A DNA stretch of 64,000 nucleotides from Natronorubrum halalkaliphilum (GTDB lineage Archaea; Halobacteriota; Halobacteria; Halobacteriales; Natrialbaceae). Positions 12,599 through 64,000 of this stretch are shown piece after piece. A program made the translations under genes and the position numbers. The stretch spans positions 1 through 64,000 of the forward strand of contig NZ_WUYX01000021.1 in assembly GCF_009834785.1 (NCBI RefSeq). The letters run 5' to 3'. The stretch's first letter is position 1. Each line of letters opens with the position of its first letter. The notes below the pieces were generated by a model, which was not told the origin of the DNA, searched no databases, and saw nothing but the letters and a program-made list of their open reading frames with translations.

Positions 12599-12748
12599 CT
12601 GACCTGGTGTGTCGTGGACTGCTATTGAGGGTCGAACGCGCTGCGCTGTCCCGTCGGGGCGACCCCTTCGAACGGCTAGTAGGTTACTCAGTGTACAGTA
12701 GTCACTTAACAGTTACAAAGATAGCGGCCGAGGGGAGAGCGATACTGA

Positions 12749-12826
12749 TACTGCTGGACAGAACTACTGTGGCGATTCGCCGTCTCCGTCCGGCGAATCT
12801 TCTTCGTCGACTTCTGCCCGGCAGTA
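12749..12826. repeat. palindromic mobile-like element, TACTG family (short copy)
   Basis: A 78-bp element with imperfect terminal inverted repeats: TACTGCTGGACAGAAC on the left, and TACTGCCGGGCAGAAG when the right end is read on the other strand. It is flanked by TGA at 12746-12748 and TGA at 12827-12829. The interior holds a 9-bp perfect stem (GATTCGCCG / CGGCGAATC). The right flank touches the stop codon of the PRPP synthase gene (complement of 12830-12832). Confidence 0.75.
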
Positions 12827-12829
12827 TGA

Positions 12830-24790: not shown

Positions 24791-24869
24791 GACGGTTTCC
24801 TGTAGTCAATTACCGCCGATCATCGGGACGTGGTCGGTGATCGGCGGTACATAGTTACAGCAATCCGTA
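24791..24869. repeat. palindromic mobile-like element, TACGG family
   Basis: A 79-bp element flanked by TGA on both sides (24788-24790, the MOSC stop codon, and 24870-24872). Left end GACGGTTTCCTGTA and inverted right end TACGGATTGCTGTAAC are imperfect inverted repeats. The interior stem is ACCGCCGATCA / TGATCGGCGGT. Confidence 0.8.
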
Positions 24870-49866: not shown

Positions 49867-50064
49867 ATGCCGTCGATATACAGATGTCAGTCCTGTCGCG
49901 CTCACTTCAGGGCATCCCGCAAACAGTGTGGCGTCTGTGGCACGACCGGTCTCGAGACGGACCGAGACACGTGCCCGAGTTGTGGGACGAGTTTCACCGA
50001 GTCGAAACACCAGCGGTGTTCGCGGTGTGGATCGGACGACGTCGAACTGGTCCAGGTGGAGTAG
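49867..50064 (+). CDS. double zinc-ribbon small protein
   Basis: A 65-residue protein with four CxxC knuckles: Cys7/10, Cys21/24, Cys36/39 and Cys51/54, enough for two zinc ribbons. The second ribbon (CPSCGTSFTESKHQRCSRCGSDDVELVQV) is typical of haloarchaeal zinc microproteins. ATG 49867. Convergent with the DUF389 gene. Function unknown; nucleic-acid or protein binding is plausible. Confidence 0.85.
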   Translation: MPSIYRCQSCRAHFRASRKQCGVCGTTGLETDRDTCPSCGTSFTESKHQRCSRCGSDDVELVQVE

Positions 50065-50076
50065 CCGGGTCTGGAA

Positions 50077-51429
50077 TTACGTATCGTCGTCCGCGCCGGG
50101 AGCCGTTGCCGGCGTGTCCTCGGCCCCGCCGGTCGTGACGAATCTGACCTGAACGTCGGTATCACCGGTGGTCTCCTGATTGATCCGTTCGTCGATCGCA
50201 GCGACGATTTCGGGGTCGTACGACCCCGGCGGACCGCCGATTTCGACGATCACGAGATCGATCTGTCCCGTCGCATCGAACGACGCATCGAACGGAAGGC
50301 CCTCCTCGCGGACTTCGACCTCGGTGCCGAGCAGGATGAGATCCTCGTGATCGTTCAGCACGTCTTCGGCCTGCTCGTCCGTCGTCTGTTCGAACGCCGA
50401 CATCTGATAGGAGGAGTAGGTAACCCCGGTCAGAAACAGCGAGAGGAGGAAGATAACGCCGACGAGGACCGCGACCTGTTTGAAAAACTGCCGCTGTGCC
50501 GTCGAGATTTCGAACCAGCTACCGGGGCGATAGCCGAGATAGCGGAGCGTCAGGAGTCCCGCGAGATTGACGCCGAGGAGGTTCACCAGGACGAGTACCG
50601 TCGATCCCAGTGCGGCGACGGGGAGTCCGTAGGCGAGGGCGACGCCGGCGGCCGCCATCGGCGGAACCAGCGCCGCCGCAATCATCACGCCGACGATCGC
50701 GATCGAAAAGCCGGTCGCGAGACTGAGGATGCCCGCAGCGCCGGCCCCGAGCGCGACGGGCAACAGGAGCAGTTCCGGGGCGATCCGTTCCGCGACCTCG
50801 TCGAGTTCGGTGATCTCTGCCCCGGGCGGAACGAGAAACAGCGCCTGAAAGATCCACGCGAAGACGGCCGCGGCGATAATCCCGCCGAACACGCCGGTGA
50901 ACTGATACTTCATGCCGGTGAGAAACACCTCCCGATCGTTGGTGACCGTCCCGATCGAGGCACTCAGCGCGGGACCGATCAACGGCGCGATCACCATCGA
51001 ACCGACCACGACGGCCGGCGAATCGAGCAGGAGTCCGACGGTCGCTACCACGGCGCTGATCAGCGTCATCACGAAGAACACGCTGAACGTCGGCGTCAAC
51101 TCGTCCGCTCTGGTGAGCAGTTCCTGTCTCGAGATCTGTTCCTCTTCGACGGATTCGGTGGCGTGTTCGTTCTGCAACTGCTCGAACTTCCGGGAGATAA
51201 CCGTCTCGGCGTCGACGACGACGGTGTAGGATTCCTCGTCGACGCCGGCGTCCTGAAGCGAATCGAGAACCGGTTCGACGGCGTTCGTCGGCACCGGAAA
51301 CGACACCACAGCGTCGTACTCTCGACTGCTACTTTCGTCGGTAACGACGTAATCGATCCCCTCGTCGTCTAACAGGTCGAGTATCGTCTCCCGTTTCCCG
51401 ATCGGGATCGTGACCTGAATGTGACGCAT
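50077..51429 (-). CDS. TIGR00341/DUF389 membrane protein
   Basis: A 450-residue protein. A cytoplasmic N-terminal domain (1-85, RHIQVTIPIGKRETILDLLDDEGID) precedes about seven transmembrane helices (about 115-345) with the family stretches VGSMVIAPLIGPALSASIGTV and AAALVPPMAAAGVALAYG. A C-terminal extracytoplasmic or soluble domain (about 355-450) follows. Function of the family is not established. ATG 51429. Confidence 0.9.
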   Translation of the reverse strand: MRHIQVTIPIGKRETILDLLDDEGIDYVVTDESSSREYDAVVSFPVPTNAVEPVLDSLQDAGVDEESYTVVVDAETVISRKFEQLQNEHATESVEEEQISRQELLTRADELTPTFSVFFVMTLISAVVATVGLLLDSPAVVVGSMVIAPLIGPALSASIGTVTNDREVFLTGMKYQFTGVFGGIIAAAVFAWIFQALFLVPPGAEITELDEVAERIAPELLLLPVALGAGAAGILSLATGFSIAIVGVMIAAALVPPMAAAGVALAYGLPVAALGSTVLVLVNLLGVNLAGLLTLRYLGYRPGSWFEISTAQRQFFKQVAVLVGVIFLLSLFLTGVTYSSYQMSAFEQTTDEQAEDVLNDHEDLILLGTEVEVREEGLPFDASFDATGQIDLVIVEIGGPPGSYDPEIVAAIDERINQETTGDTDVQVRFVTTGGAEDTPATAPGADDDT

Positions 51430-51573
51430 TTTCTATCACTCATCGTCCGAGAGCAAAATAGCTGGGTCGGAAACTGCATGCCGTCGTCGATCCCGTCAAA
51501 CCGGGCCGTCAGTCGAGGGTGCGTCTCGAGCGCGATCGACCCGCGAAGCCGGTTCTGTCAGCGTGGTCAAATA

Positions 51574-52500
51574 CTATCCGTCGGGGTACGGAAGCTCGAG
51601 CGTCTGACCGTCCTCGGGAACGAAGACCTCCCCGCCGAACACGTCGCGAGCCTGTTCGAGGTGATCCTCGGTGTGGCCGGCGTACCGCGATGAGAGATGC
51701 ATCAGGGCGAGCCGGCCGGCTCCGGTCCGCCTCGCGATTTCGGCCGCCTGTCGGGCCGTCGAATGGGCCGTCTCGCTCGCACGCTCGGCGCGGTCGTCGG
51801 CGAACGTCGCGTCGTGGATCAACAGCTCTGGGTCGTCCGCGATCTCGATCGTCGCCGTCGCGGGTCGCGTATCCCCCGTATAGACGATCGACCGGCCGGG
51901 CCGGGGCTCGCCGACGACTTGTTTCGGGTCGACGACGGTGCCGTCCTCAAGTTCGACCGACTCTCCCGCATGCAGTTTCGAGAACTTCGGACCGACGGGG
52001 ACGCCGAGTTCCTCCGCGCGTTCGCGGTCGAACCGTCCCTTGCGGTCGTCTTCGACGAGTGCGTACCCGACCGACCGGGCGTCGTGGTCGGTGCCGAACG
52101 CGCGGACTTCGTACTCGTCGGCGCGGTAGGCGACGTCGCCGTCGCCGACCTCGTTGATCCGGACCGGAAACGAGGGGCGGTTGCCCAGGGCGTTTACCAG
52201 CGACTTGAGCTGGCGGCGCGTCCCCTGGGGCGTGTGAATCGCCAGGGGGTCCTTGCGGTCGTTGAAATCCATCGTCTGGAGGAGGCCCGGAATCCCGAGG
52301 ACGTGGTCGCCGTGGAGATGCGTGACGAACAGGTGTGAGACGGAAAACCCCGTCCCGAAACGCATCATCTGGCGCTGGGTCCCTTCGCCGGCGTCGAACA
52401 ACAGCTTCTCGCCCTCTCGAGCGACGAAGATGCTACTCGGGTTCCGCTCGGTCGTCGGGACCGCCCCAGCCGTCCCTAGAAACGTCACACGCAATGACAT
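51574..52500 (-). CDS. rnz: ribonuclease Z (tRNA 3' processing)
   Basis: A 308-residue metallo-beta-lactamase-fold endonuclease that cuts tRNA precursors after the discriminator base. The zinc motif THLHGDH has ligands His61, His63, Asp65, His66. Further ligands are in FGTDHDARSVGY, YTGDTRPA and LMHLSSRYAGH. The exosite-arm region around 150-190 is present. Length is normal for archaeal RNase Z. ATG 52500 (MSLRVTFLGTAGA). Confidence 0.95.
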   Translation of the reverse strand: MSLRVTFLGTAGAVPTTERNPSSIFVAREGEKLLFDAGEGTQRQMMRFGTGFSVSHLFVTHLHGDHVLGIPGLLQTMDFNDRKDPLAIHTPQGTRRQLKSLVNALGNRPSFPVRINEVGDGDVAYRADEYEVRAFGTDHDARSVGYALVEDDRKGRFDRERAEELGVPVGPKFSKLHAGESVELEDGTVVDPKQVVGEPRPGRSIVYTGDTRPATATIEIADDPELLIHDATFADDRAERASETAHSTARQAAEIARRTGAGRLALMHLSSRYAGHTEDHLEQARDVFGGEVFVPEDGQTLELPYPDG

Positions 52501-52685
52501 CGCTCGAACCTCCGGCTGCCGTGACTAAACCCCCTTCGATGGACATCAGGTCGGTGGCCGGCGGTCCGCGCTCGAGAGTAAGCAGGAACTACTCGACCGA
52601 GCTGTGTCGAACCGATCCGGTTTCTGCGAACGAACTCGGCGTTTTACGTCTCTCGAGTCCGTACGGGGGAACGATACCACCCCCA

Positions 52686-53909
52686 ATGAGTTCGAGAGAG
52701 ACGTTAGGCACGATCAAGCGCATCGGTGCGATCCTGATCGCGATCGTGGTCGTGCTCGCTGCGGGGATCGTCGTCGGCCAAGCGCCCGCCATCTTCGGCG
52801 TCGAAACCGATTCCGAGGCGTCGATCGTGTTCGAGGACCAGCAAAGCGACGGAGAAACGGTCATCATCGACGGGGAGAACGTCACCGTCGACGAAACGGC
52901 CGTCGTCATCGACGAGGTCTCCCTCTCGGACGGCGGCTTCGTCGTTGTGACCGGCGGCGGTGACGATCCGCTCGCCGTCTCCGACTACCTCGGCTCCGGG
53001 ACCCACGAGAACGTGACCGTCGAACGCGAGGAAGACGCCGACGGAGAACTCGTCGGCCAGCTCACCGCGACGGTTCACCAGGATACCACCGGCGACGAAA
53101 CCTACGCGTACGGGGAAACCGACGGTGCGGAAGACCGTCCCTACCTCGAGAACGGGTTCCCGGTTTCGGACACCGCGACGGTGACGAGCGAAGACGACGG
53201 TGTGCTGGGAGACTCGTTCGCTGTCGACAGCTTCAGCACACCCTCCTCGGCCACCACGAACGAGACCATCGAGATCGTCGCCGAGATTTCCAACCCGACC
53301 GACCTCGGAACCCAGCAAAACGTCGATCTCCGTCTCGACGGTGCCCTACTCGAGCAACGGGCAGTGACGCTCGAATCCGAGGAATCCCGCGAAGTAACGT
53401 TCGAGATCGACACCGTCGGGACGCCGCCCGGCGAACGAACGATCGGCGTCTACACCGACGCCGACGGTGCGGTCGAATCGATCGACCTCGAGTTCCACAC
53501 TGAGCCCGCCGTCGAGGTCGTCGCTGCGACCGACGAGAACGTCACCCTCGACGTCGCGATCCCGGTCGACGGCTTCGTCGCGATCGAGGACGAGAACGGG
53601 ACGATTGTCGGGGCGAGCGATGCACTCGAGCCGGGCGAACACGCGAACGTTACCGCCGAGTTCGACGAGAACGCGACCGTCGAGGACGACGACGAACTCA
53701 CCGCCATCCTCTACGAGGGCGATCCGGACGAACCCGACGAGGCCTCGCCGTTCGAGCCGCAGGACGACGACGAGATCGAACTCGACGCGGACAGCGAATC
53801 CGTCGAGACGACGTTTACGATCGCGGACGTGAGGGAGGAAGCTGATGACGATGCGGATGACGATGGCGATACCGATGACGGCGACGACGCCGATGACGAG
53901 GAGACGTAA
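52686..53909 (+). CDS. surface-anchored DUF7282/CARDB-like protein
   Basis: A 407-residue protein with a signal-anchor helix (about 12-32), then a DUF7282-like domain (about 55-170; DEVSLSDGGFVVVTGGG, YLGSGTHENVTVE, DRPYLENGFPVSDTATV). A CARDB-type beta domain follows (about 175-270), then a second, more divergent DUF7282-like copy (about 280-385). The last ~20 residues are an Asp-rich tail. Family names are from memory. Likely a cell-surface or periplasm-like structural protein. The TAA stop comes from sequence resembling the inner part of a TACGG-family element. Confidence 0.75.
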   Translation: MSSRETLGTIKRIGAILIAIVVVLAAGIVVGQAPAIFGVETDSEASIVFEDQQSDGETVIIDGENVTVDETAVVIDEVSLSDGGFVVVTGGGDDPLAVSDYLGSGTHENVTVEREEDADGELVGQLTATVHQDTTGDETYAYGETDGAEDRPYLENGFPVSDTATVTSEDDGVLGDSFAVDSFSTPSSATTNETIEIVAEISNPTDLGTQQNVDLRLDGALLEQRAVTLESEESREVTFEIDTVGTPPGERTIGVYTDADGAVESIDLEFHTEPAVEVVAATDENVTLDVAIPVDGFVAIEDENGTIVGASDALEPGEHANVTAEFDENATVEDDDELTAILYEGDPDEPDEASPFEPQDDDEIELDADSESVETTFTIADVREEADDDADDDGDTDDGDDADDEET

Positions 53910-53974
53910 CTATTTACCGCCGATCACCAGAGACGGGGTCGGTGATCGGCGGTAATTGACTACAGTAAACCGTA
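53907..53974. repeat. palindromic element, TACGG family, left end damaged
   Basis: The stem ACCGCCGATCACC / GGTGATCGGCGGT and right end CTACAGTAAACCGTA are intact, followed by TAA (53975-53977). The left tip is shortened so that TAACTATTTACC of the element begins at the stop codon of the upstream gene. Confidence 0.7.
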
Positions 53975-53977
53975 TAA

Positions 53978-54086
53978 TACGGTCGAACAGAAACAACGTG
54001 AAGATCGGTCGCGCTACTGCGGCTGTCTCCGACGTCGACGGCCGCGAATTCGCGACCGACTACGTATTGACTGCTATCCGACGGTA
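53978..54086. repeat. palindromic element, TACTG family (109 bp)
   Basis: Flanked by TAA on both sides (53975-53977 and 54087-54089). Left end TACGGTCGAACAGAA; inverted right end TACCGTCGGATAGCAG. It is joined tip to tip with the TACGG element at 53907-53974, sharing the TAA. Its interior (GGTCGCG...GAATTCGCGACC) matches the copy at 58782-58972 closely. Confidence 0.75.
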
Positions 54087-54128
54087 TAACCGACCGATTC
54101 TTACCCGACCCGCTCCTATCGACTGGCG

Positions 54129-55133
54129 ATGGACGCGCCGCTGTGGACCGATACCCACGCCCCCGAGCTGGCCGAGTTGCCACAGGACGACGCTCGCGAG
54201 TACTTACAGCGGGCCGTCGACGAGCCGATCAACCTCCTCCTGCAGGGCCCGCCCGGAAGCGGGAAGACGGCCGCCGCTCGTGCGCTGGCTCGCGAAGCTC
54301 ATGCGGACCCGGACAACGACCTGATCGAGATCAACGTCGCCGACTTCTTCGGCCGCACGAAAACCGAGATCAAGAACGACCCTCGCTTCGAGCAGTTCCT
54401 CGTCGGCCGCTCGTCGATGTCCAAACGGGACATGATCAACCGCGTGCTCAAGGAGTCCGCGAGCTACGCCTCCGTTTCCGGCGAGTACAAGACGATCCTG
54501 CTCGACAACGCCGAAGACGTCCGCGAGGACTTCCAGCAGGCCTTGCGTCGAATCATGGAGCAACACCACCGAACGACGCAGTTCGTAATCGCCACCCGCC
54601 AGCCGACCAAGCTCATCCCGCCGATCCGCTCGCGGTGTTTTCCCGTCTCGGTGCGGGCGCCCTCGAGTCCCGAAATCGTCACCGTCCTCGAGCGAATCAT
54701 GGAGAACGAGGGCGTCGCGTACGACGACGACGGCCTCGAGTTCGTCGCTGGGTACGCAAACGGCAACCTCCGACAGGCCGTGCTGGCCGCCCAGACGACC
54801 GTCGAGGACGAGGGCGAGTTGACGATGCAGGCGGCCTACGAGACCATCGGCGAGGTCGGTCTCGAGGACGAGATCGAGGCGATGTTAGACGACGCCGAGG
54901 CGGGCGAGTTTACGGACGCCCGGAAGGCCCTGGACGACCTGCTCGTCGACGAGGGTCTCGACGGTGGAGAGGTCATCGAGTCGATTCTCAGCGTGGCACG
55001 GAAACGGTATCAGGGCGAGCGACTCGCGGAGATCCACCGGCTGGCCGCGGATATCGAGTTCGAGATGCACGAAGGCTCGAGCGATCGGATTCACGTCTCG
55101 CATCTGCTGGCCGAACTCGGCCGAGACGCCTGA
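54129..55133 (+). CDS. rfcC: replication factor C-like clamp-loader subunit (RfcC-like)
   Basis: A 334-residue AAA+ protein of the RFC small-subunit type. Walker A GPPGSGKT is at 40-47; the SRC (arginine finger) segment is RSRCFPV; the C-terminal collar domain is helical. The Walker B-like ILLDNAED (Asp126) has Asn127 where the catalytic Glu normally follows, so it may bind ATP without efficient hydrolysis (inference). RFC loads the PCNA clamp on DNA. Haloarchaea have several RFC genes and I assign this one to the second small-subunit type; the symbol is tentative. TGA stop borders a TACTG element. Confidence 0.85.
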   Translation: MDAPLWTDTHAPELAELPQDDAREYLQRAVDEPINLLLQGPPGSGKTAAARALAREAHADPDNDLIEINVADFFGRTKTEIKNDPRFEQFLVGRSSMSKRDMINRVLKESASYASVSGEYKTILLDNAEDVREDFQQALRRIMEQHHRTTQFVIATRQPTKLIPPIRSRCFPVSVRAPSSPEIVTVLERIMENEGVAYDDDGLEFVAGYANGNLRQAVLAAQTTVEDEGELTMQAAYETIGEVGLEDEIEAMLDDAEAGEFTDARKALDDLLVDEGLDGGEVIESILSVARKRYQGERLAEIHRLAADIEFEMHEGSSDRIHVSHLLAELGRDA

Positions 55134-55190
55134 TACTGTTGGACAGAACGACGTGAATCCGATTGTTTTGCTGAGGTCGTCACCGTGGGC
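55134..55190. repeat. truncated palindromic element, TACTG family
   Basis: It begins directly after the rfcC-like TGA stop (55131-55133) with TACTGTTGGACAGAACGACG, the same end as the element at 60396-60502 read in reverse. It matches that copy for about 57 bp and then breaks off. Confidence 0.65.
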
Positions 55191-55258
55191 ACCGAGAAAC
55201 CGGCCTGAGCGCCGGACTCGAGGCTACTTTTTTCGCGGTTGGGCCACCACTAGCCGAT

Positions 55259-55702
55259 ATGCCAACCGTTCTCGAGACGCACATCAAGAATCGATTCCGC
55301 GTCCAGCCGAATCACGCGAACAACAACGACACGCTCCACGGGGGCAACCTCATGAAGTGGCTCGACGAGGTCGGGGCGATGTCGGCGATGCGTTTTGCCG
55401 GCGAAACCTGCGTCACCGCCCGCGTGAACGAACTCGACTTCGAGCGGCCGATCGGTATCGGCGACACGGCGCTGGTCGAGGCGTTCGTCTACGACGCGGG
55501 CCGGACGAGCGTCCACGTCGGGCTTCGCGCCTGGCGCGAGGAACCCAGAAGCGGCCAGGCGGAGCGGACGACCGAATCGTCGTTCACCTTCGTCGCCATC
55601 GACGAGGACGGATCGCCGGTTCCCGTACCGACGCTGTCCGTCGACACCGACCGGGGCCGTGAACTTCGCGAACGGATGCTCGAGAGGGAAGTCGGCGAGT
55701 AG
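55259..55702 (+). CDS. hot-dog acyl-CoA thioesterase
   Basis: A 147-residue hot-dog-fold enzyme hydrolysing acyl-CoA thioesters. The stretch HANNNDTLHGGNLMKWLDEVGAMSAMRFAG (about 19-48) is the conserved substrate and catalytic region, and DFERPIGIGD (about 60-69) follows. Length is normal for the YciA/BFIT-type family. ATG 55259. Chain-length preference unknown. Confidence 0.9.
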   Translation: MPTVLETHIKNRFRVQPNHANNNDTLHGGNLMKWLDEVGAMSAMRFAGETCVTARVNELDFERPIGIGDTALVEAFVYDAGRTSVHVGLRAWREEPRSGQAERTTESSFTFVAIDEDGSPVPVPTLSVDTDRGRELRERMLEREVGE

Positions 55703-55757
55703 TCACGCCGACTCGCGAGGGGTATCAGATCGATCAGAAACCGCAAGAACACGACGT

Positions 55758-57146
55758 TCAGTCCCGGACGACTGACTCCTCGTCGGCGGCCTGCTCCTCG
55801 TCGGCGTCGGGTGGCCGCTCGAGTTTTCGCAGTCTCGCCTTTAGAATTCGCGTGTTCTCGACGGTTTCGACGGTGATTCGAACGCCGTCGTAGGTGATCT
55901 CCTCGCCTTCCTCGACGAGGCGACCCGCGCGGTTGAAGATGAAGCCGGCGATCGTCTCGAACTCCTGGCCCTCCGGCAGATCGATATCGAGGGCTTCGTT
56001 GACGTCCTCGATGTTGACCTCGCCGCGGACGATCACGGTGCGCTCGTCGACTTCCTCCACCGGTTCGTCCTCGCCGGATTTGAGTATCTCGCCGACGATT
56101 TCTTCGATCATGTCCTCGACGGTGACCAGTCCCTCGGTCGTGCCGAACTCGTCGATGACGATGGCCATGTGCATCCGGTTTTCCCGCATCTCGGTAAGGA
56201 GTTCGTCGACGTTCTTCGACTCGGGAACGTGCAGCGTCGGCTGGATGAGATCGTCGAGTTGGAGGTTCTCGGCCTCGGTTTCGCCGTAGTTGAGATCGCG
56301 GACGAGGTCGCGGATGTGGACGACTCCCTGGACGTTGTCGAGGCTGCCCTCGTAGACCGGCACGCGAGCGTGACCGCTCTGAATACAGGTCTCGATGGCT
56401 TCGTCGATGTCCGCGTCTTTCGGAACGGCGGTCATATCCAGCCGAGGAGTCATCACCTCCTTGACGATCGTGTTGTTGAAGCGAAAGATTCGCGTGAGCA
56501 TCTCGTGTTCTTCCTCCTCGAGGACGCCCTCGCGTTCGCCGGACTCGATCATCTCTTGGATCTCGTCACGGGTGACGTATGGCGACTCGATCGCACCCGT
56601 CGAGCCGATGAGTTTGTTGACCTGTCTGGTGAGGTAGTCGAAGAGAATAATCAGCGGATACAGCAGGTACTCCGTGGCTTTCAGCGGTTTCGAGATTCGA
56701 ATCGACCACGACTCGGTGTTTTCGACCGCGTAGGACTTGGGGACGCTCTCGCCGAAGAGGAGGACAAGTGCGGTGATGCCGAACGTCGCGAGCAAGACGC
56801 CGACCAGGCCGCCGAAGTGGATCGACAGGACCGCCGTCGCGATCGATGACATCGCGATGTTGACGATGTTGTTCCCCACCAGAATCGTCACGAGGAGTCT
56901 GTGTGGATCGTCTTTGAGGCTTTTGACCAGTGTCGCGCCGGGCACGTCGTCCTCGACCATCCCCTCGAGACGGTGTTTGGGAAGGTTGAACATCGCGATT
57001 TCGGAGGACGAAAAGAACCCGGAAAGAACGATAAGAACGGCCACAGCGAACACACCGAGAATCGTCACCGTCGACTGATCGATTTCCAAGCCCACGACTG
57101 GGACCTGGTAGGCGACCACGGCCTCGAGCAGCGGAAAGAACGCCAT
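55758..57146 (-). CDS. CNNM/CBS-domain membrane protein (CorC_HlyC family)
   Basis: A 462-residue protein. Four hydrophobic segments of the CNNM/DUF21 domain (about 28-170, with GFFSSSEIAMFNL), a CBS pair (about 215-340, with VYEGSLDNVQGVVHIRDL and IVIDEFGTTEGLVTVED), and a CorC_HlyC C-terminal domain (about 355-445, IVRGEVNIEDVNEALDIDLPE). The CNNM family is linked to magnesium/divalent cation homeostasis. ATG 57146. Confidence 0.92.
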   Translation of the reverse strand: MAFFPLLEAVVAYQVPVVGLEIDQSTVTILGVFAVAVLIVLSGFFSSSEIAMFNLPKHRLEGMVEDDVPGATLVKSLKDDPHRLLVTILVGNNIVNIAMSSIATAVLSIHFGGLVGVLLATFGITALVLLFGESVPKSYAVENTESWSIRISKPLKATEYLLYPLIILFDYLTRQVNKLIGSTGAIESPYVTRDEIQEMIESGEREGVLEEEEHEMLTRIFRFNNTIVKEVMTPRLDMTAVPKDADIDEAIETCIQSGHARVPVYEGSLDNVQGVVHIRDLVRDLNYGETEAENLQLDDLIQPTLHVPESKNVDELLTEMRENRMHMAIVIDEFGTTEGLVTVEDMIEEIVGEILKSGEDEPVEEVDERTVIVRGEVNIEDVNEALDIDLPEGQEFETIAGFIFNRAGRLVEEGEEITYDGVRITVETVENTRILKARLRKLERPPDADEEQAADEESVVRD

Positions 57147-57242
57147 TGATGTCGTGATTTATAGCCGGATCGGTTAACCGTTTACCATTTAGGGGTCCGC
57201 TCGGCCGCCGACGATACGTTTACCCGCCCGTTTCCCGAACGA

Positions 57243-57560
57243 ATGGGTATGGGAGCATCCGCCAGTGCAGACGGCGACGCACCGATCACGTTCTATCGAC
57301 TGCAAGCGTGTCCGTACTGCGAACGCGTCGCTCGACTGCTCGAGGAGTACGACCTGACGTATCAGTCGCGGTTCGTCGAACCGATGCACTCGCGGCGTGA
57401 CGTCGTCAAGCGAGTCGCCGGCGTCCGCACCGTTCCGGTCATCGTCGACGACGAAACCGGCGTCACGATGGCCGAGAGTGCGAACATCGTCAGCTACCTC
57501 GAGAAGACCTACGGCGACGACGGTGCCGAAGCGACCACGGCGGCCGGAGGTGAGAACTGA
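57243..57560 (+). CDS. glutaredoxin-like protein
   Basis: A 105-residue thioredoxin-fold protein with the redox motif CPYC (Cys23, Cys26), TVPVI cis-proline region and a GST-N-like helix (SANIVSYLEKTYG). Start ATG 57243, or the ATG at 57249. Haloarchaea use gamma-glutamylcysteine rather than glutathione, so the real partner thiol may be that. It overlaps the next gene by one base (TGATG), so the two are coupled. Confidence 0.9.
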   Translation: MGMGASASADGDAPITFYRLQACPYCERVARLLEEYDLTYQSRFVEPMHSRRDVVKRVAGVRTVPVIVDDETGVTMAESANIVSYLEKTYGDDGAEATTAAGGEN

Positions 57561-58072
57561 TGCCCGACTTCGAAGTCGTCGATCTCGGGCCCGCAGATGG
57601 CGTCGAATCGGGGACGAAAGCCGCCGACTTCGCTCGGCCGCTGGTCACCGACGAATTCTGGGAGGATCGAAGCCTGTCCGACGTCGTCGCCGACGACGGC
57701 CGAACGATCCTCGTCTTTACCCCCATGATCGGGTCGTTCGTCGGCAAGTACGTCTGGGAAGAACTCGACGAGCGCGACTGGTTCGATCGTGCGGATCGCA
57801 TCGTCGGCGTGACGGCGTCGACACCCTACGGCGTTTCGCGGTTCCTCGACGAAAACGAGTTCCCGTTCGCGATCTTCTCGGACCCGAGCAACGAGATCGC
57901 CGACGCCTACGGCGTCCCCCACGACCTCGACGGGATGGCGGGCCTCAGCGAACCGCGAATCGCCGTCTTCGCTCTCGAACCGGACCTGACCGTCGAAACG
58001 AGCTGGGTCGCCACCGAGTGGCCCGAGTTCCCAGACTACGACGACCTCGAGCGCCAACTGGGACTCGAGTGA
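57560..58072 (+). CDS. redoxin-domain protein without cysteine
   Basis: A 170-residue thioredoxin/AhpC-like protein. The fold is visible: FARPLVTDEFWEDRSLSDVV, TILVFTPMIGSF, FPFAIFSDPSNEIADAYGV and IAVFALEPDLTVETSW. The peroxidatic Cys expected in the TPMIGSF region is missing and the whole protein has no cysteine, so it cannot be a normal peroxiredoxin. It is translationally coupled to the glutaredoxin-like gene, which suggests a joint role. ATG 57560. Confidence 0.85.
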   Translation: MPDFEVVDLGPADGVESGTKAADFARPLVTDEFWEDRSLSDVVADDGRTILVFTPMIGSFVGKYVWEELDERDWFDRADRIVGVTASTPYGVSRFLDENEFPFAIFSDPSNEIADAYGVPHDLDGMAGLSEPRIAVFALEPDLTVETSWVATEWPEFPDYDDLERQLGLE

Positions 58073-58142
58073 GTTGCAATCCGAGCCCGCCACGAACGAA
58101 CAGGACGGTACGTTTTTGCCGCCGACACGGCGATGACTAGCC

Positions 58143-58769
58143 ATGAATGCGGACGATCTCGAGCGCGCGGTAACGGCGATCCGAGACGGCGGACTGGTGG
58201 TGTATCCGACCGAAACCGTCTACGGTCTCGGTGCCGACGCGCTCGATTCCGACGCCGTCGAGCGTGTGTTCGCGGTCAAGGGCCGTGACCGGTCGAAGCC
58301 GGTCTCGTTCGCCGTGCCGACGTTCGAGGCGGCAGTCGAGGAAGGGTACGTTCGGGTGAGCGATCGCGAACGCGAGTTCGCCGAGGAATTCCTTCCGGGG
58401 CCCGTGACGCTGCTTTGCGAGCGACGGGGGGTCATCTCCGACACGCTCACCGCGGGCAACGATCGGGTCGGCGTTCGCGTGCCCGACTGCGAGCCCGCAC
58501 TCGAGTTCCTTGAGCACGCGGAACGGCCGATCACCGCAACGAGCGCCAACGTCAGCGGCGAGCCGAGCGCGAAACGGGTCGACGACATCGGCGAGCAGGT
58601 GCTCGACGAAGCAGTCGTCCTCGAGGCAGATTACCTGTACGACTCGCCGCAGCGATCTGCGGGCGACGAGAGCGAGCCGGCGAGCACCGTCGTGGACATC
58701 GCGTCGGGAACGATTCACCGCCGCGGCGCGCTGGACGACGAGATCGAAGCGTGGCTCGAGGAGCAGTGA
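58143..58769 (+). CDS. L-threonylcarbamoyladenylate synthase (Sua5/YrdC)
   Basis: A 208-residue YrdC-domain enzyme for the first step of the t6A tRNA modification: threonine, bicarbonate and ATP to threonylcarbamoyl-AMP. Family stretches: YPTETVYGLGADAL (20-33), VKGRDRSKP, GPVTLLCERR, TATSANVSGEPSA. It lacks the C-terminal Sua5 domain, as many YrdC proteins do. ATG 58143, about 70 bp after the redoxin gene. Confidence 0.94.
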   Translation: MNADDLERAVTAIRDGGLVVYPTETVYGLGADALDSDAVERVFAVKGRDRSKPVSFAVPTFEAAVEEGYVRVSDREREFAEEFLPGPVTLLCERRGVISDTLTAGNDRVGVRVPDCEPALEFLEHAERPITATSANVSGEPSAKRVDDIGEQVLDEAVVLEADYLYDSPQRSAGDESEPASTVVDIASGTIHRRGALDDEIEAWLEEQ

Positions 58770-58781
58770 CGGCGTTACTGA

Positions 58782-58972
58782 TACTGTCGGACAGCAGTCA
58801 TTGATACGGATTGTTGTAACTAGTTACCGCCGATCACCAGAGACGGGGTCGGTGATCGGCGGTCATTGACTACAGGAAACCGTATGAGAAGTCGGTCGCG
58901 AATTCGCGGCCGTCCTCGGGGATGACGGCCGCAGTAGCGCGACCGATCTTCGAATCGTTCTGTCCGGCAGTA
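58782..58972. repeat. palindromic element, TACTG family, carrying a nested TACGG element
   Basis: The outer element is flanked by TGA at 58779-58781 and 58973-58975. Ends: TACTGTCGGACAGCAG and inverted TACTGCCGGACAGAAC. Without the insert (58805-58884 plus one TGA copy) it is 108 bp, matching the 107-109 bp of its relatives. Confidence 0.85.
58805..58884. repeat. nested palindromic element, TACGG family (80 bp)
   Basis: Flanked by TGA at 58802-58804 and 58885-58887. Left end TACGGATTGTTGTAA; inverted right end TACGGTTTCCTGTAG. Stem ACCGCCGATCACC / GGTGATCGGCGGT. It interrupts the TACTG element, whose uninterrupted form exists at 53978-54086. Confidence 0.9.
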
Positions 58973-59039
58973 TGACACCCGTCGAACCGGAATCGACGGA
59001 CGGCCCGCATAGCTGCTGTCGGCGCTGCCAGAAAACAGG

Positions 59040-59399
59040 TTAGTCGGCCGTTTGTTCGCGTCCGGCGGGAGCGTGCTGGTCGCCTCGAGTACCGGTCAGG
59101 AGCCGGTGGCTGCGTCGAGCCATCGACGCTACGAACCGCACGATGTTTTTCGGGCCGGTCTGGGGACCGGGGGCGCGATAGCACACGATCAGCGTCCACA
59201 TCGCCGCCACACCGGCCGAGCCGAGCGCCGAGAACCGCATCCCCATGGTCGCGTAGGTGAACGAGTAGATCGCCCCGATGGCCATCGACGGAAAACTCGA
59301 CCCGAGGGGGATTCGAGCGGACGAGTCCCGAACCGTGGGTGCGAGGAAGACGATCGAGAGGACGCTTCCAGCGAGGAACACGAAGTCTTGCCACATCAT
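59040..59399 (-). CDS. three-helix membrane protein, MMWQD family (copy 2)
   Basis: A 119-residue paralogue of the protein at 35492-35872. The first ~77 residues are similar throughout: MMWQDFVFLAGSVLSIVFLAPTVRDSSARIPLG. Both start ATG ATG TGG. Three hydrophobic segments are followed by an Arg/His-rich tail unrelated to that of the other copy. Function unknown. Confidence 0.8.
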   Translation of the reverse strand: MMWQDFVFLAGSVLSIVFLAPTVRDSSARIPLGSSFPSMAIGAIYSFTYATMGMRFSALGSAGVAAMWTLIVCYRAPGPQTGPKNIVRFVASMARRSHRLLTGTRGDQHAPAGREQTAD

Positions 59400-59517
59400 C
59401 AGTGAATCGGTTACTCGGTTACGAGTAAAAGGTTCACGGTATCGGGTCGGGGCGGACGGTAAATCGTCCGGAATAGAGATGTTCAGGGTTCAGTACAGGT
59501 ACTCTCGAAGACGGATA

Positions 59518-60204
59518 TTAGCGAAAATCGAGCAGTGACCGAAGCGTTCGCGTCCGGACGCCACACTGCGTCGCGAACTCGCAGGACTTACACTTCGACC
59601 GATTGCTGGTCCGAGCCGGCGGGCCGTCGAGTTCCCGGACCGTCCGGAGCGCTCGCCGATACCGCGCCTTCCGGCGCGTCGTCAGGTCGACGGTTCGAAC
59701 GACGCCGCAGGCGGGGTACTCGAGCCAGACGCGATCGACCGACGTCTGGTGTTCCCAGGCCAGCGCCTTCGCGGCGCCAACGGCCTGGACCGACTGCGCC
59801 TCCCAGACGCCCTGTTCGGGCGGTTCGCCGGTCGAGATTACGACGGGCTCGAGGGGATCCTCGAGCACCTTGTGGACGATCCCGCGACAGTGCCGGCCGG
59901 TTGCGAGGACGTTTCGATCGACGGGTTCGCAGAGACGTGCCCAGTGGCCGTCGTCGGTAAGACGGTCACGGGTCGCCGCGAGTCGGTCGCGATACCGGGC
60001 GGCGGGAACGGCGATGGGTTCCGCCTCGAGGGCGTCCGCCGGAGCGGCGAGCAACTCCTCGTACCGCATCGCGAGTGCGCGGATCGATTCGACCTCCGGC
60101 GGCGGCTCCCGGTCCGCCTCGTCGCTCGTCCGCTGGTAGTAGCACTTCCGCGGACAGTACGCCGCCGTCCGCAGATCGCTGAAGGAAACGTGGGCTCGAG
60201 ACAC
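59518..60204 (-). CDS. Cas4-like Fe-S protein, likely nuclease-inactive
   Basis: A 228-residue stand-alone protein of the Cas4/RecB-like type. The Fe-S cysteine layout of Cas4 is complete: Cys17 near the N-terminus and Cys205, Cys208, Cys214 (CX2CX5C) near the C-terminus; Cys21 is also present. The PD-(D/E)XK core looks degraded: the GxxD position reads GIVH, and the E-x-K strand reads VVISTG. The following helix (EAQSVQAVGAAKAL) keeps the QxxxY-like region in part. No CRISPR array or other cas gene is nearby. A DNA- or RNA-binding role without cutting is possible (inference). Confidence 0.8.
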   Translation of the reverse strand: MSRAHVSFSDLRTAAYCPRKCYYQRTSDEADREPPPEVESIRALAMRYEELLAAPADALEAEPIAVPAARYRDRLAATRDRLTDDGHWARLCEPVDRNVLATGRHCRGIVHKVLEDPLEPVVISTGEPPEQGVWEAQSVQAVGAAKALAWEHQTSVDRVWLEYPACGVVRTVDLTTRRKARYRRALRTVRELDGPPARTSNRSKCKSCEFATQCGVRTRTLRSLLDFR

Positions 60205-60395
60205 GACCGGTCTGGCCGCTCCTTCGCATAAAAAGGCTCGTGGAAAGGCCGGTCCGACTCCGCGGTAGTTGGCTGCGCCTCGGAAGAGGACACGAAGTCG
60301 TACCGATCGCGAGTGGAGCGCCGCTCGGCCGCTTTGTTCGCGGGGGTATCCGAAGTCGACTCGAGAGACGGAAAGAAAGAACCCCGCGTTCCGTA

Positions 60396-60502
60396 TACTG
60401 TCGGGAAGCAGTCAATACGAAGCCGATCGTGAATTCGGGGTCGTCGCCGACGGTGACGACTCCAGCAAAACGATCGGCGTCACGTCGTTCTGTCCAACAG
60501 TA
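60396..60502. repeat. palindromic element, TACTG family (107 bp)
   Basis: Left end TACTGTCGGGAAGCAG; inverted right end TACTGTTGGACAGAACG. The right flank TCA (60503-60505) is the complement of the stop codon TGA of the membrane-protein gene. The left flank is GTA, so the direct repeat is not kept here. Interior pairs GCCGATCGT with ACGATCGGC and GTCGTC with GACGAC. Confidence 0.75.
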
Positions 60503-60901
60503 TCAGTCCGGGCTCCAGCCGCCGAGATCCCGAGCGACGAGCAGGTGACCGAGGACGTAGAACGGAATCAGGAGCGCAACGCCGATCATGGTGTCGACAG
60601 CGATTTCGCCCGAAATCGGCGGCAGAAACACGAAGGCCACTACGGCGGCGCCCCCGATTGCGATGACGAGGATGCGTCCACCGATCCCGAGATCGCGGGC
60701 CATCGAATCGATCTGCCGACCGATCGGCGACTGCGCGAGTGGCCCCATTACGAGCGCGCCGATGACGACGCCGACGGCAACCCAGCGCCAGTCGTCGACG
60801 GTGGACGCGTTGAGCGCCACGAGGAGGACGCCACAGACGGCGCCGACGAGGTCGCTCTTCGTCGGCGGCCGATTCGGAAAGACCCCATACCAGCGTTGCA
60901 T
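60503..60901 (-). CDS. membrane protein with four helices, unknown function
   Basis: A 132-residue membrane protein, opening MQRWYGVFPNRPPTKSDLVG. About four hydrophobic segments (21-31, 39-55, 72-92, 100-120). No family recognised. ATG 60901 is chosen because the frame upstream crosses a palindromic element. Its TGA stop forms the flank of a TACTG element. Confidence 0.7.
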   Translation of the reverse strand: MQRWYGVFPNRPPTKSDLVGAVCGVLLVALNASTVDDWRWVAVGVVIGALVMGPLAQSPIGRQIDSMARDLGIGGRILVIAIGGAAVVAFVFLPPISGEIAVDTMIGVALLIPFYVLGHLLVARDLGGWSPD

Positions 60902-60990
60902 TCCCCTCGAGTCTCGATTATCGCGGCCGGATCGAATAGCTATCGGTTTGCCAACAGCTCCGACGGAACGGGCTTCGGTCGACCGCTTGA

Positions 60991-61070
60991 GACGGTTTAC
61001 TGTAGTCAATGACCGCCGATCACCGACCCCGTCCCTGGTGATCGGCGGTAACTAGTTACAGCAATCCGTA
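60991..61070. repeat. palindromic mobile-like element, TACGG family (80 bp)
   Basis: Flanked by TGA at 60988-60990 and 61071-61073. Left end GACGGTTTACTGTA; inverted right end TACGGATTGCTGTAAC. Stem as in the nested copy at 58805-58884, of which it is nearly the reverse complement. It lies between divergent genes, not at a gene end. Confidence 0.85.
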
Positions 61071-61153
61071 TGAGACAACGACACCGCAACTATCGCTCCC
61101 CGGCGCACACACAACCGACGAACTGAAGGTCCCGTTGTCCGAGAGGAAACGTG

Positions 61154-61744
61154 ATGGCCGACGAACTGAAGCGACGGCTCGTCCACTCGAGCGGAGCGGG
61201 TCTCGTCGCCCTCTACCTCCTCGCAGAGTACTTCGAACTCGGACTCACGTGGCCCCGGTTTCAGCTCCTGATGGTCGTCCTCGCGGTCGGCACGATCGGC
61301 CTCGAGTTCCTCCGACTCCGCGCCGGCCTCGACTGGGCGCTGTACGACAAACTGACCCGCGACTACGAACAGAATCAGTTCGCGGGCTACGGCTACTACA
61401 TGGTGAGCATGACGGTCGCCGTGCTCGTATTTCCGCCCGAAGTTGCGTTACCCGCGATGTTGATGCTCGCGATCGGCGACCCGATCAGCGGGGCCGTCTC
61501 CGACGACAGCCTCAAGTTCGTCAAGGGACCGAAGGTGCTCGTCACGATGTTCGTCGTGAGCGCGATCATCGCCGCGCCGTTTCTCTACGAGACCCCGCTG
61601 GCCGTGCTCGCGGCAGCGGTCGGCGCGACCGTCGCCGACGGCATCAAGGTCCGGATCGGCGATTTCATCGTCGACGACAACCTGACGATTCCCATCTACG
61701 CGGGCCTATTAGCGTATCTGGTCCTCGAGTTCGCGCCCGTCTGA
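61154..61744 (+). CDS. dolichol-kinase-like / phytol-kinase-family membrane protein
   Basis: A 196-residue membrane protein with six to seven hydrophobic helices. The opening DELKRRLVHSSGAGLVALYLL and the polar segment AIGDPISGAVSD...KFVKGPKVLVTMFVVS correspond to the CTP:polyprenol kinase family, where GDxxAs and KS/TxEGt-like motifs bind nucleotide. It may phosphorylate an isoprenoid alcohol for lipid or glycan synthesis. ATG 61154 is used; a GTG codon sits directly before it. Confidence 0.78.
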   Translation: MADELKRRLVHSSGAGLVALYLLAEYFELGLTWPRFQLLMVVLAVGTIGLEFLRLRAGLDWALYDKLTRDYEQNQFAGYGYYMVSMTVAVLVFPPEVALPAMLMLAIGDPISGAVSDDSLKFVKGPKVLVTMFVVSAIIAAPFLYETPLAVLAAAVGATVADGIKVRIGDFIVDDNLTIPIYAGLLAYLVLEFAPV

Positions 61745-61806
61745 TCGAATTTTTTCGCGGATATCGGCAGCAACCGAGACGGCACACGCAACGCGTTGGA
61801 AGCCGA

Positions 61807-62148
61807 CTAGATGTCCGTCGCTCGGAACCGTCGGTAACTGAACCCGACGGCGGCGACGATCCAGCCGACGAGGACGACGAGTGCGAACGTCGGGTCCTCA
61901 TAGAACGCCGGGTCCGAGGGCGGCCGGACGAGCGTCCCGGCATCGAGGTCCGGGAACAGCCCAGTGAGCAGGTGCGTGTACGCGGCGATCGGGTTCAGCG
62001 CGGAGACGAACGCCACCCATTCGGGCGTCGTCTCGGGGAACGAGAGTTCGTGTCGAACGTAGAGTTCGGCTCGAGGGAACTGCACCCAGAGCTGGAAGAA
62101 AAAGAGGACGAAGACGCCGAACGCGGCCGGTTCCGGTATCGGCAACAC
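61807..62148 (-). pseudogene. remnant of ABC-2 type transporter permease (C-terminal part)
   Basis: The 113 residues look like the end of an ABC-2 permease: hydrophobic segments at each end, the loop ALNPIAAYTHLLTGLFPD typical of NosY-like proteins and the end VVAAVGFSYRRFRATDI style. The frame stops just upstream of the possible GTG at 62148, so the N-terminal half is missing. No ATPase gene is adjacent. I judge it a decayed, truncated gene. Confidence 0.6.
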
Positions 62149-62258
62149 CGTACCGGAAAGGTGCCCTCATGGCCGACGGTCACGGAGGAGGTGGTACAGT
62201 GAGACGGCTGTTGGATTTCGACGGCTCGTCGACAGCGAAAGCGGTGCTTGCGGAAAAA

Positions 62259-62444
<186 letters not shown>

Positions 62445-62492
62445 GGAGCGGTCGAAGAGAAGAGCGAAAGAGAGGAAGGGTTTCGTGGCCCA

Positions 62493-63002
62493 TCACGCGT
62501 TCAACCGCCAGAGCTCGAAATTGAGGACCGACGCGAACGTCACCCACGCGAGATACGGGACGAGCAAGGCCGCCGCCCGCCGGTCGACGCGCCGGAACGC
62601 CTCGATCGTCGCGACGACCAGCACCCAGAGAGCGAGGATGACGCCGAGACCGAGCAACGGGTTCTCGAGCGAGAAAAACGACGGCGTCCACGCGACGTTA
62701 AACGCCATCTGTACGACGAAGAGTCCGAGCGCGAGCCGTCGACCCGACGCGTCGCTCCTGCGCCAGACGAGCCAGAGCGCGACCCCCAGTAGCGTAAAGA
62801 GCAGCGTCCAGGCGATCGGAAACGCGATCCCAGGCGGGTAGAACCACGGCTTCTCGAGGCTCCGGAACCACGCCGTATCCGTCGAGGAGAAGACGCCCGG
62901 CAAACTCCCGACGATGTTGACGAGAAGGACGAATCCGACGGCTTGAATCAGCGGATCGGGGCCGGGCAACCGACGGGTGACGTTCGTGATGGAACTGGCC
63001 AT
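62493..63002 (-). CDS. TspO/MBR family protein
   Basis: A 169-residue five-helix membrane protein. Family motifs: WFRSLEKPWFYPPGIAFPIAWTLLFTLLGVALW (about 46-78), NVAWTPSFF (about 102-110) and the C-terminal YLAWVTFASVLNFELWRLN. TspO binds porphyrins and steroids and is linked to stress and light regulation. ATG 63002 (MASSITNV). Confidence 0.9.
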   Translation of the reverse strand: MASSITNVTRRLPGPDPLIQAVGFVLLVNIVGSLPGVFSSTDTAWFRSLEKPWFYPPGIAFPIAWTLLFTLLGVALWLVWRRSDASGRRLALGLFVVQMAFNVAWTPSFFSLENPLLGLGVILALWVLVVATIEAFRRVDRRAAALLVPYLAWVTFASVLNFELWRLNA

Positions 63003-63068
63003 GATCGAACGGACGGCTCGAGCGCGCAAAATACCTGCACTGGCAGCAGACAGTGTTCCCGGTTAGGG

Positions 63069-63347
63069 TTACCCGTCTCGGAGGGCGGTTGCGATCGACT
63101 CGAGTTCGGCCTTCCGGAACGGACGCTGTGCATCGGCGGGGTCGTTCTCGTCCGCGACGCCGATCGTCCAGAGAATGCCCGCGCGCATCTGGGGTTTCGA
63201 GGGGCGACCGTTCGTCTCGGGTTCGTAACCGACGGCCTCGCAGATCGCGGCGAGGGCTTCTTTCGTGAAGGCGGTCGACTCGAGACGTTCGTGCCGCCCG
63301 ACGGCTAGGCGGATTTCGTCCCGAAGATCGTCTACGGTGTCTGCCAT
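63069..63347 (-). CDS. small soluble haloarchaeal protein, unknown function
   Basis: A 92-residue charged protein without membrane segments: VDDLRDEIRLAVGRHERLESTAFTKEALAAICEAVGYEPE. Helix-rich, acidic and likely conserved in haloarchaea. ATG 63347. No function known. Confidence 0.75.
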   Translation of the reverse strand: MADTVDDLRDEIRLAVGRHERLESTAFTKEALAAICEAVGYEPETNGRPSKPQMRAGILWTIGVADENDPADAQRPFRKAELESIATALRDG

Positions 63348-63611
63348 ACCGATAGCAACGAACGGGTCCGCCGTGTAGATTTGGGTCCTAGATCGAGACG
63401 AACCCGGCGTACCCGACAGCCACCGGTGACGCGAAACGGTCGTTCGCGACGACCGAAGGAGAAGGATCGGTCGCGAACCGAAGATTACCCGCGTCGGTTG
63501 GAGAGTTCGCCCTCGAGCGACCGATTCGGGACGCGGTGGACGGTCATTGACGAGCGGAGTGCGGTACCTAATGGGAAAACATATGCTGTTGCTGTAGAAT
63601 CACGTTGGCAA

Positions 63612-64000
63612 ATGAGTCCCGCCGTCCCTCCCGGCGTCCTCGAGTCGGGACGCCGACTCCGCCGCTTCGGCCGCCAGTGCGTTCGAATCGATACGCGAAC
63701 GCTGGCCGTCTTCCGCGTCTTCGCGGCCCTGCTTATCGTCGCCGACCTCTTTCTCCGGGCGCGAAACTTCTCGTACTTCTACACCGACCGGGGCGTCGTC
63801 CCGCGCTCGCTGGTCCTCGAGACCGCCTCGACGTATCCGTTCTCGATCTACCATCTGACAACGGATCCGACGCTCATCGCAGCCCTGTTCGTTCTGCAAG
63901 GGCTGATCGCGATCCAGTTGCTCGTCGGCTACAAGACCCGACTCGCGACGATTCTGTCGTTCCTGTTCGTCGTCTCGTTAGACCATCACAACCCGTTCGT
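63612..64000 (+). CDS. HTTM domain membrane protein (partial, 3' end beyond right edge)
   Basis: About 129 residues are visible. RIDTRTLAVFRVFAALLIVADLFLRARNFSYFYTDRGVVPRS matches the opening of HTTM (horizontally transferred transmembrane) proteins, related to vitamin-K-dependent gamma-carboxylase. Three hydrophobic helices are in view. ATG 63612 with a CATATGC box (63580-63586) about 29 bp before it. The function of HTTM in haloarchaea is unknown to me. Confidence 0.85.
   Translation, partial: MSPAVPPGVLESGRRLRRFGRQCVRIDTRTLAVFRVFAALLIVADLFLRARNFSYFYTDRGVVPRSLVLETASTYPFSIYHLTTDPTLIAALFVLQGLIAIQLLVGYKTRLATILSFLFVVSLDHHNPF

Follow-up and report, generated by a model that had tools for sequence, protein, structure and literature searches.

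Nested insertion and 3-bp target duplications in two families of small MITE-like repeats of haloarchaea

A composite element and its surroundings

The window analysed here is a stretch of 64,000 nucleotides from the 4.56-Mb draft genome of a haloarchaeon (G000; contig 33, positions 1-64000). Distributed along it are small inverted-repeat elements of two families, TACTG and TACGG, several of them complete and one pair nested (Table 1). A DUF7282 gene (52335-53909) runs into this set: its TAA stop (53907-53909) falls within a TACGG element whose left end is damaged, so that the reading frame seems to be terminated by sequence of the element. Between 53907 and 61071, seven elements or remnants of both families are found in approximately 7 kb, versus roughly one per 30-40 kb genome-wide as estimated from end counts. 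This clustering is local and arises partly through nesting and adjacency. In genome G005, the orthologous intergenic region downstream of a Sua5/YrdC gene (L114) carries neither element and is much shorter, and is too diverged for a breakpoint to be placed.

Table 1. Repeat elements in the window and the target duplications of the nested pair
Feature	Position	Strand	Remarks
Left TGA of the outer element's 3-bp target duplication	58779-58781
Outer TACTG element (TACTG...CAGTA)	58782-58972	+	191 bp = 108 bp + 80-bp insert + 3 bp
Left TGA of the inner element's target duplication	58802-58804		Uninterrupted copies carry TGA once (CACTGAGAAG)
Inner TACGG element (TACGG...CCGTA)	58805-58884	+	80 bp; hairpin core ACCGCCGATCACC...GGTGATCGGCGGT
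Right TGA of the inner element's target duplication	58885-58887
Right TGA of the outer element's target duplication	58973-58975
TACTG-family element	53978-54086	-	109 bp; ends mutated to TACGG/CGGTA; TAA/TAA flanks; adjoins a TACGG element
TACGG-family element	53907-53974	+	Left end lacks about 12 bp; abuts 53978-54086 with TAA between
Truncated TACTG-family element	55131-55195	+	One intact end, TGATACTGTTGGACAG
TACTG-family element	60396-60502	+	107 bp; second core subfamily
TACGG-family element	60992-61071	-	96% complementary to 58804-58883
Short TACTG-family element	12746-12829	+	78 bp between TNA flanks
TACGG-family element	24791-24869	-

The outer element of the nested pair is bounded by TACTGTCGGACAG and CTGTCCGGCAGTA and displays AGTCA as its left subterminal motif. 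A preliminary description of this DNA had reported a TACTG element split by a complete 80-bp TACGG element with TGA on both sides; its coordinates are exact, and removal of the insert together with one TGA indeed leaves 108 bp. The best comparators for this restored sequence are full-length 108-bp copies on other contigs of the same genome, to which it aligns without gaps at 97.2% (L004), 96.3% (L005 and L007) and 95.4% (L003) identity, the shuffled-sequence baseline having a mean of 52% and a maximum of 59%. In these copies, TACTG sequence continues on both sides of the position occupied by 58805-58884 in the window. The undisturbed target reads CACTGAGAAG, with a single TGA, in L003, L004 and L007 and CAACGAGAAG in L005. 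Uninterrupted copies thus constitute the exact empty site of the inner insertion. Given the gap-free match of the restored element, the single TGA in the copies and the doubled TGA around the insert, the TACGG family has transposed, as the preliminary description had concluded, and has left a 3-bp target duplication. The two copies in the window that it had proposed for comparison (the reverse complement of 53978-54086, at 81.8% identity, and 60396-60502, at 71.3%) do lie above the shuffled level but are not the best empty sites. What the insertion supports is past movement of the TACGG family; present activity lies outside this evidence. Nested insertion of small elements is itself ordinary in haloarchaea.

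The same arrangement recurs at G000:C65:11595-11780, where ten bases of the outer part are unread (N) and the TACGG element sits at the identical base in the identical orientation. The flanks of this second composite are unrelated to those in the window, and its own target duplication is TCA/TCA, as opposed to TGA/TGA in the window. A composite found again in other surroundings and with a separate duplication means that TACTG elements, too, have been mobile, a conclusion to which the duplication statistics of 82 TACTG copies described below also contribute.

Ends, target duplications and hairpin cores of the two families

Members of the TACTG family possess 13-bp ends (TACTGTCGGACAG) with terminal pairing in 97.9% of cells, and those of the TACGG family end in TACGGATTGYTGTAAC and TACGGTTTMCTGTAGTC. 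Directly internal to the ends, the two families have the same pair of motifs, AGTCA(ATGA) at one side and AACTA at the opposite side. Since these subterminal motifs and the TNA duplication are common to both, the two families are probably served by identical or closely related enzymes. Within the genome, the TACTG end pattern, with up to two mismatches allowed, occurs 140 times, versus two occurrences of the reversed pattern, and the TACGG element yields at least 40 scored matches; both repeats thus occur far beyond chance. The modal lengths are 80 bp for TACGG and 107/108 bp for TACTG, and no transposase gene lies inside. Exactly 80 bp is the length of 29 of the 31 collected TACGG copies, while the TACTG family falls into size classes of about 47-55, 75, 78, 107-108 and 149-162 bp in addition to the 191-bp composite. 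All paired copies examined are small (47-191 bp), and their location is mostly intergenic.

Several variants were encountered among the collected loci. In the 162-bp variants L148 (G003) and L206 (G007), the loop known from the 108-bp class holds a further hairpin of approximately 54 bp. Four near-identical elements of about 170 bp in G034 (L289-L292), with TACTG ends and TGA flanks, occupy unrelated loci, which suggests recent movement and makes that genome suited to a transposase hunt. A third small repeat, with ends like TAGTAGCCACTGGAAGTCA and TAGTAACAACTGGAAC, was observed in L162 (G003) and L165 (G007); in L162 it splits a TACTG element of the 78-bp class, providing another nested case.

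Duplication statistics were obtained from 113 distinct copies in the fetched loci (82 TACTG and 31 TACGG). Exact 3-bp duplications of the sequence TNA flank 90 of them: 29 of the 31 TACGG copies and 61 of the 82 TACTG copies, the latter being a low estimate because a few TACTG entries pair a true end with a chance match. When TNA is present on both sides, the middle base is identical in 61/70 TACTG copies (permutation mean 23, maximum 36; 2000 permutations) and in 29/30 TACGG copies (mean 15.7, maximum 23). This agreement led us to reject a TA-only duplication of the IS630/mariner kind. The TACGG target can be written A-C-TNA-G (C 0.80, G 0.83), with CTNAG as its palindromic part, and the TACTG target is looser. 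At two loci, L217 (G000:C39:12600-13200) and 53907-54089 of the window, elements of the two families lie directly side by side, separated by a single TNA common to both, and the edge of one element seems to have served as target for the other.

For the hairpin core, 32 copies of the 107/108-bp class were aligned, with one terminal base of the first sequence (G1 of L003) set to the consensus T. From this alignment, RNAalifold predicted 37 pairs, with 95.5% standard pairs and 12 pairs changed on both sides, amounting to 74 such cells; the controls gave an average of 27 cells for shuffles and at most 14 for slid structures. A single subfamily split accounts for many of the 74 cells, which therefore stand for a smaller number of events, and the alignment used for counting is also the one from which the structure was predicted. 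On this model, the core contains compensatory substitutions, for which both selection and template-switch correction are possible causes.

Distribution in haloarchaea and the search for a transposase

An exact TACTG end, TNATACTGTCGGACAG, is present in 8/20 genomes of relatives, 25/61 genomes of the family (Natrialbaceae) and 11/79 genomes of the order, and the reversed control pattern gave zero matches in all of them. Elements of these families are also found in relatives including Natrononativus amylolyticus, Natrialba magadii and Halobiforma lacisalsi (all Natrialbaceae), and intact ends with TNA flanks are present in many relatives. In genomes from outside Natrialbaceae, the cores differ while the ends persist, often together with the TNA flanks. 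This combination of identical ends and different cores in several haloarchaeal families suggests that one transposase system may serve many element families. In plasmid records, including those of Halococcus and Halobellus, the small elements are mostly intergenic. Matches in viral contigs and phage records were limited to single ends at the level of chance; since chance alone can produce one match to a 16-base pattern in a genome, unpaired single matches such as L274 carry no weight.

The mobilising enzyme was sought through two transposase families, DDE_Tnp_1 and DDE_Tnp_4; in a draft assembly, insertion sequences present in several copies may be interrupted or missing. About 69 DDE_Tnp_1 loci from nine genomes (G000, G002, G003, G007, G008, G010, G032, G034 and G064) displayed neither these ends nor inverted ends with TNA flanks, and DDE_Tnp_4 genes were absent from six element-rich genomes; across these two sets, no IS5-type transposase with matching ends was found. 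Genomes with a single exact TACTG end, checked for a lone insertion sequence, contained nearly always small elements or remnants. Two widely spaced end pairs in G064 proved to be separate elements. A protein scan of the genome contigs for named orthologues returned bacteria only. Since the searched loci held no autonomous element with these ends, the probable nature of the transposase is read from the 3-bp TNA duplication.

Interpretation and comparison with known systems

Direct observation extends to the insertion with its duplication, to the presence of the composite at a second location and to the 3-bp TNA duplications at about 90 loci. We consider both repeats to be MITE-like non-autonomous DNA transposons of haloarchaea, cut and joined by a trans-acting transposase that staggers its cuts by 3 bp, a reading to which we assign a probability of roughly 0.87. 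Such an enzyme, probably of the DDE type, would recognise the inverted ends (TACTGTCGGACAG, or TACGGATTGYTGTAAC and TACGGTTTMCTGTAGTC) together with the subterminal motifs AGTCA and AACTA, and the hairpin core may have a role in the process. It would cut CTNAG-like targets with a 3-bp stagger, and joining of the element at the cut target would, once repaired, give rise to the TNA duplication. The insertion seen in the window took place at a CTGAG-type site, where a TACGG element entered a TACTG element close to its left end; the composite, with intact TACTG ends on its outside, would then have moved to another locus.

For the two composites, this history of one insertion and later transfer of the composite is more likely than its alternative but not the sole account, since another inner copy, L012, matches the window's insert overall as closely (77/80) as the copy in the second composite does. 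Two independent TACGG insertions at the identical TGA, without movement of the composite, would also be in keeping with the conserved CTGAG target of elements of the 58782 type and with the preference of TACGG elements for CTNAG. We regard them as improbable given the equal orientation in both composites and the variant pair AGAGACGG and CAGGAAACC, which occurs jointly in the inner copies of the two composites and in no other collected inner element. The paired changes in the hairpin core are less easily assigned. Template switching during replication, which corrects quasi-palindromes, could account for them in place of selection for transposition or RNA structure: this mutational process is known and readily affects long GC-rich inverted arms, and the several paired changes that follow one subfamily split reduce to few events. 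However, 95.5% pairing extends over all 37 pairs, the 12 pairs changed on both sides include scattered small ones, and asymmetric internal loops are largely conserved, so that template switching is a serious candidate to which we give somewhat less than even odds.

As for the nature of the repeats as a whole, their mostly intergenic location and strong hairpins would befit intergenic elements with a function as RNA or terminators that recombination has disseminated. That explanation has hardly any credibility in view of the near-identical empty site, which the insertion entered exactly and with a target duplication, of the TNA duplications seen at loci unrelated to one another and of the absence of any Rfam match in 50000-64000. 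More weight attaches to an assignment to small mobile repeats (SMRs) of the Haloquadratum type, moved by a mechanism other than a classical transposase. The sizes are equal (80 and about 110 bp), both kinds have inverted ends and many copies, and both insert into other mobile elements; the ends of SMRs are unrelated to known transposons (PMC3119063), and for the ends described here no matching transposon was found in the searched loci. SMRs are nevertheless reported without target duplications, which are nearly universal here, and SMR-A inserts into PATE palindromes whereas the TACTG and TACGG elements use CTNAG-like sites; with SMRs compared by description only, we hold this assignment to be rather unlikely. 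A broader proposal, which we put forward as a doubtful one, is that the elements are tiny repeats spread over several haloarchaeal families, with common 13-bp ends, unrelated cores and no transposon of their own; their movement would depend on a transposase, dedicated or domesticated, whose gene lies elsewhere, and the conserved hairpin core would participate in it.

The interest of the MITE-like reading lies in its fixed points. Haloarchaeal small mobile repeats have been described as moving enigmatically without target duplications, whereas ends, target and 3-bp duplication are fixed here; moreover, the ends recur across haloarchaeal families, and no transposase-bearing element with such ends was found in the searched loci. 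Because the empty site and about 90 insertions define these features, a marked element can be built to find the enzyme. Intergenic regions, moreover, gain stop codons and hairpins from these elements.

In Haloquadratum walsbyi, small mobile repeats occur along with MITEs and PATEs; its SMR-A and SMR-B are reported to leave no target duplication, to be mobilised in an unexplained manner and, in the case of SMR-A, to target PATE/IS605 palindromes (PMC3119063). The TACTG and TACGG elements resemble SMR-A and SMR-B in measuring 80-110 bp, in having inverted terminal repeats, in numbering tens of copies and in inserting into mobile elements, and no related transposon was found for them in the searched loci; they differ, so far as the published description of SMRs allows comparison, in leaving TNA duplications (90/113) and using CTNAG-like targets. 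PATEs, IS200/IS605 derivatives and REP/REPIN sequences are likewise short, hairpin-rich, mobile and often intergenic, but they lack terminal inverted repeats with target duplications. The presence of both here led us to reject a PATE or IS200/IS605 derivative, and the TNA duplications exclude REP/REPIN, that is, paired REP hairpins moved by RAYT without target duplication.

Duplications of 3 bp (TNA/TWA) are known from IS1031-type elements of the IS5 group and from eukaryotic PIF/Harbinger transposons with their Tourist MITEs. These systems share with the present elements the 3-bp duplication, palindromic targets and short non-autonomous derivatives; no such transposase with these ends was found in the searched loci, and the resemblance, which is one of duplication only, offers a lead to a possible relationship. 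The closest correspondence is with MITEs of haloarchaea and bacteria, such as the HqIRS MITE families (PMC3119063; reviewed in PMC10969869), which are short, non-coding and multicopy, with inverted ends, a fixed-length duplication and presumed movement in trans. The ends of a MITE should match those of a transposase-bearing element, and none was found among the searched loci for TACTG or TACGG. Being short and devoid of a transposase gene, present in many copies, and bounded by terminal inverted repeats and a fixed 3-bp duplication, the elements agree with MITEs on all tested points except the parent and are best filed as MITE-like.
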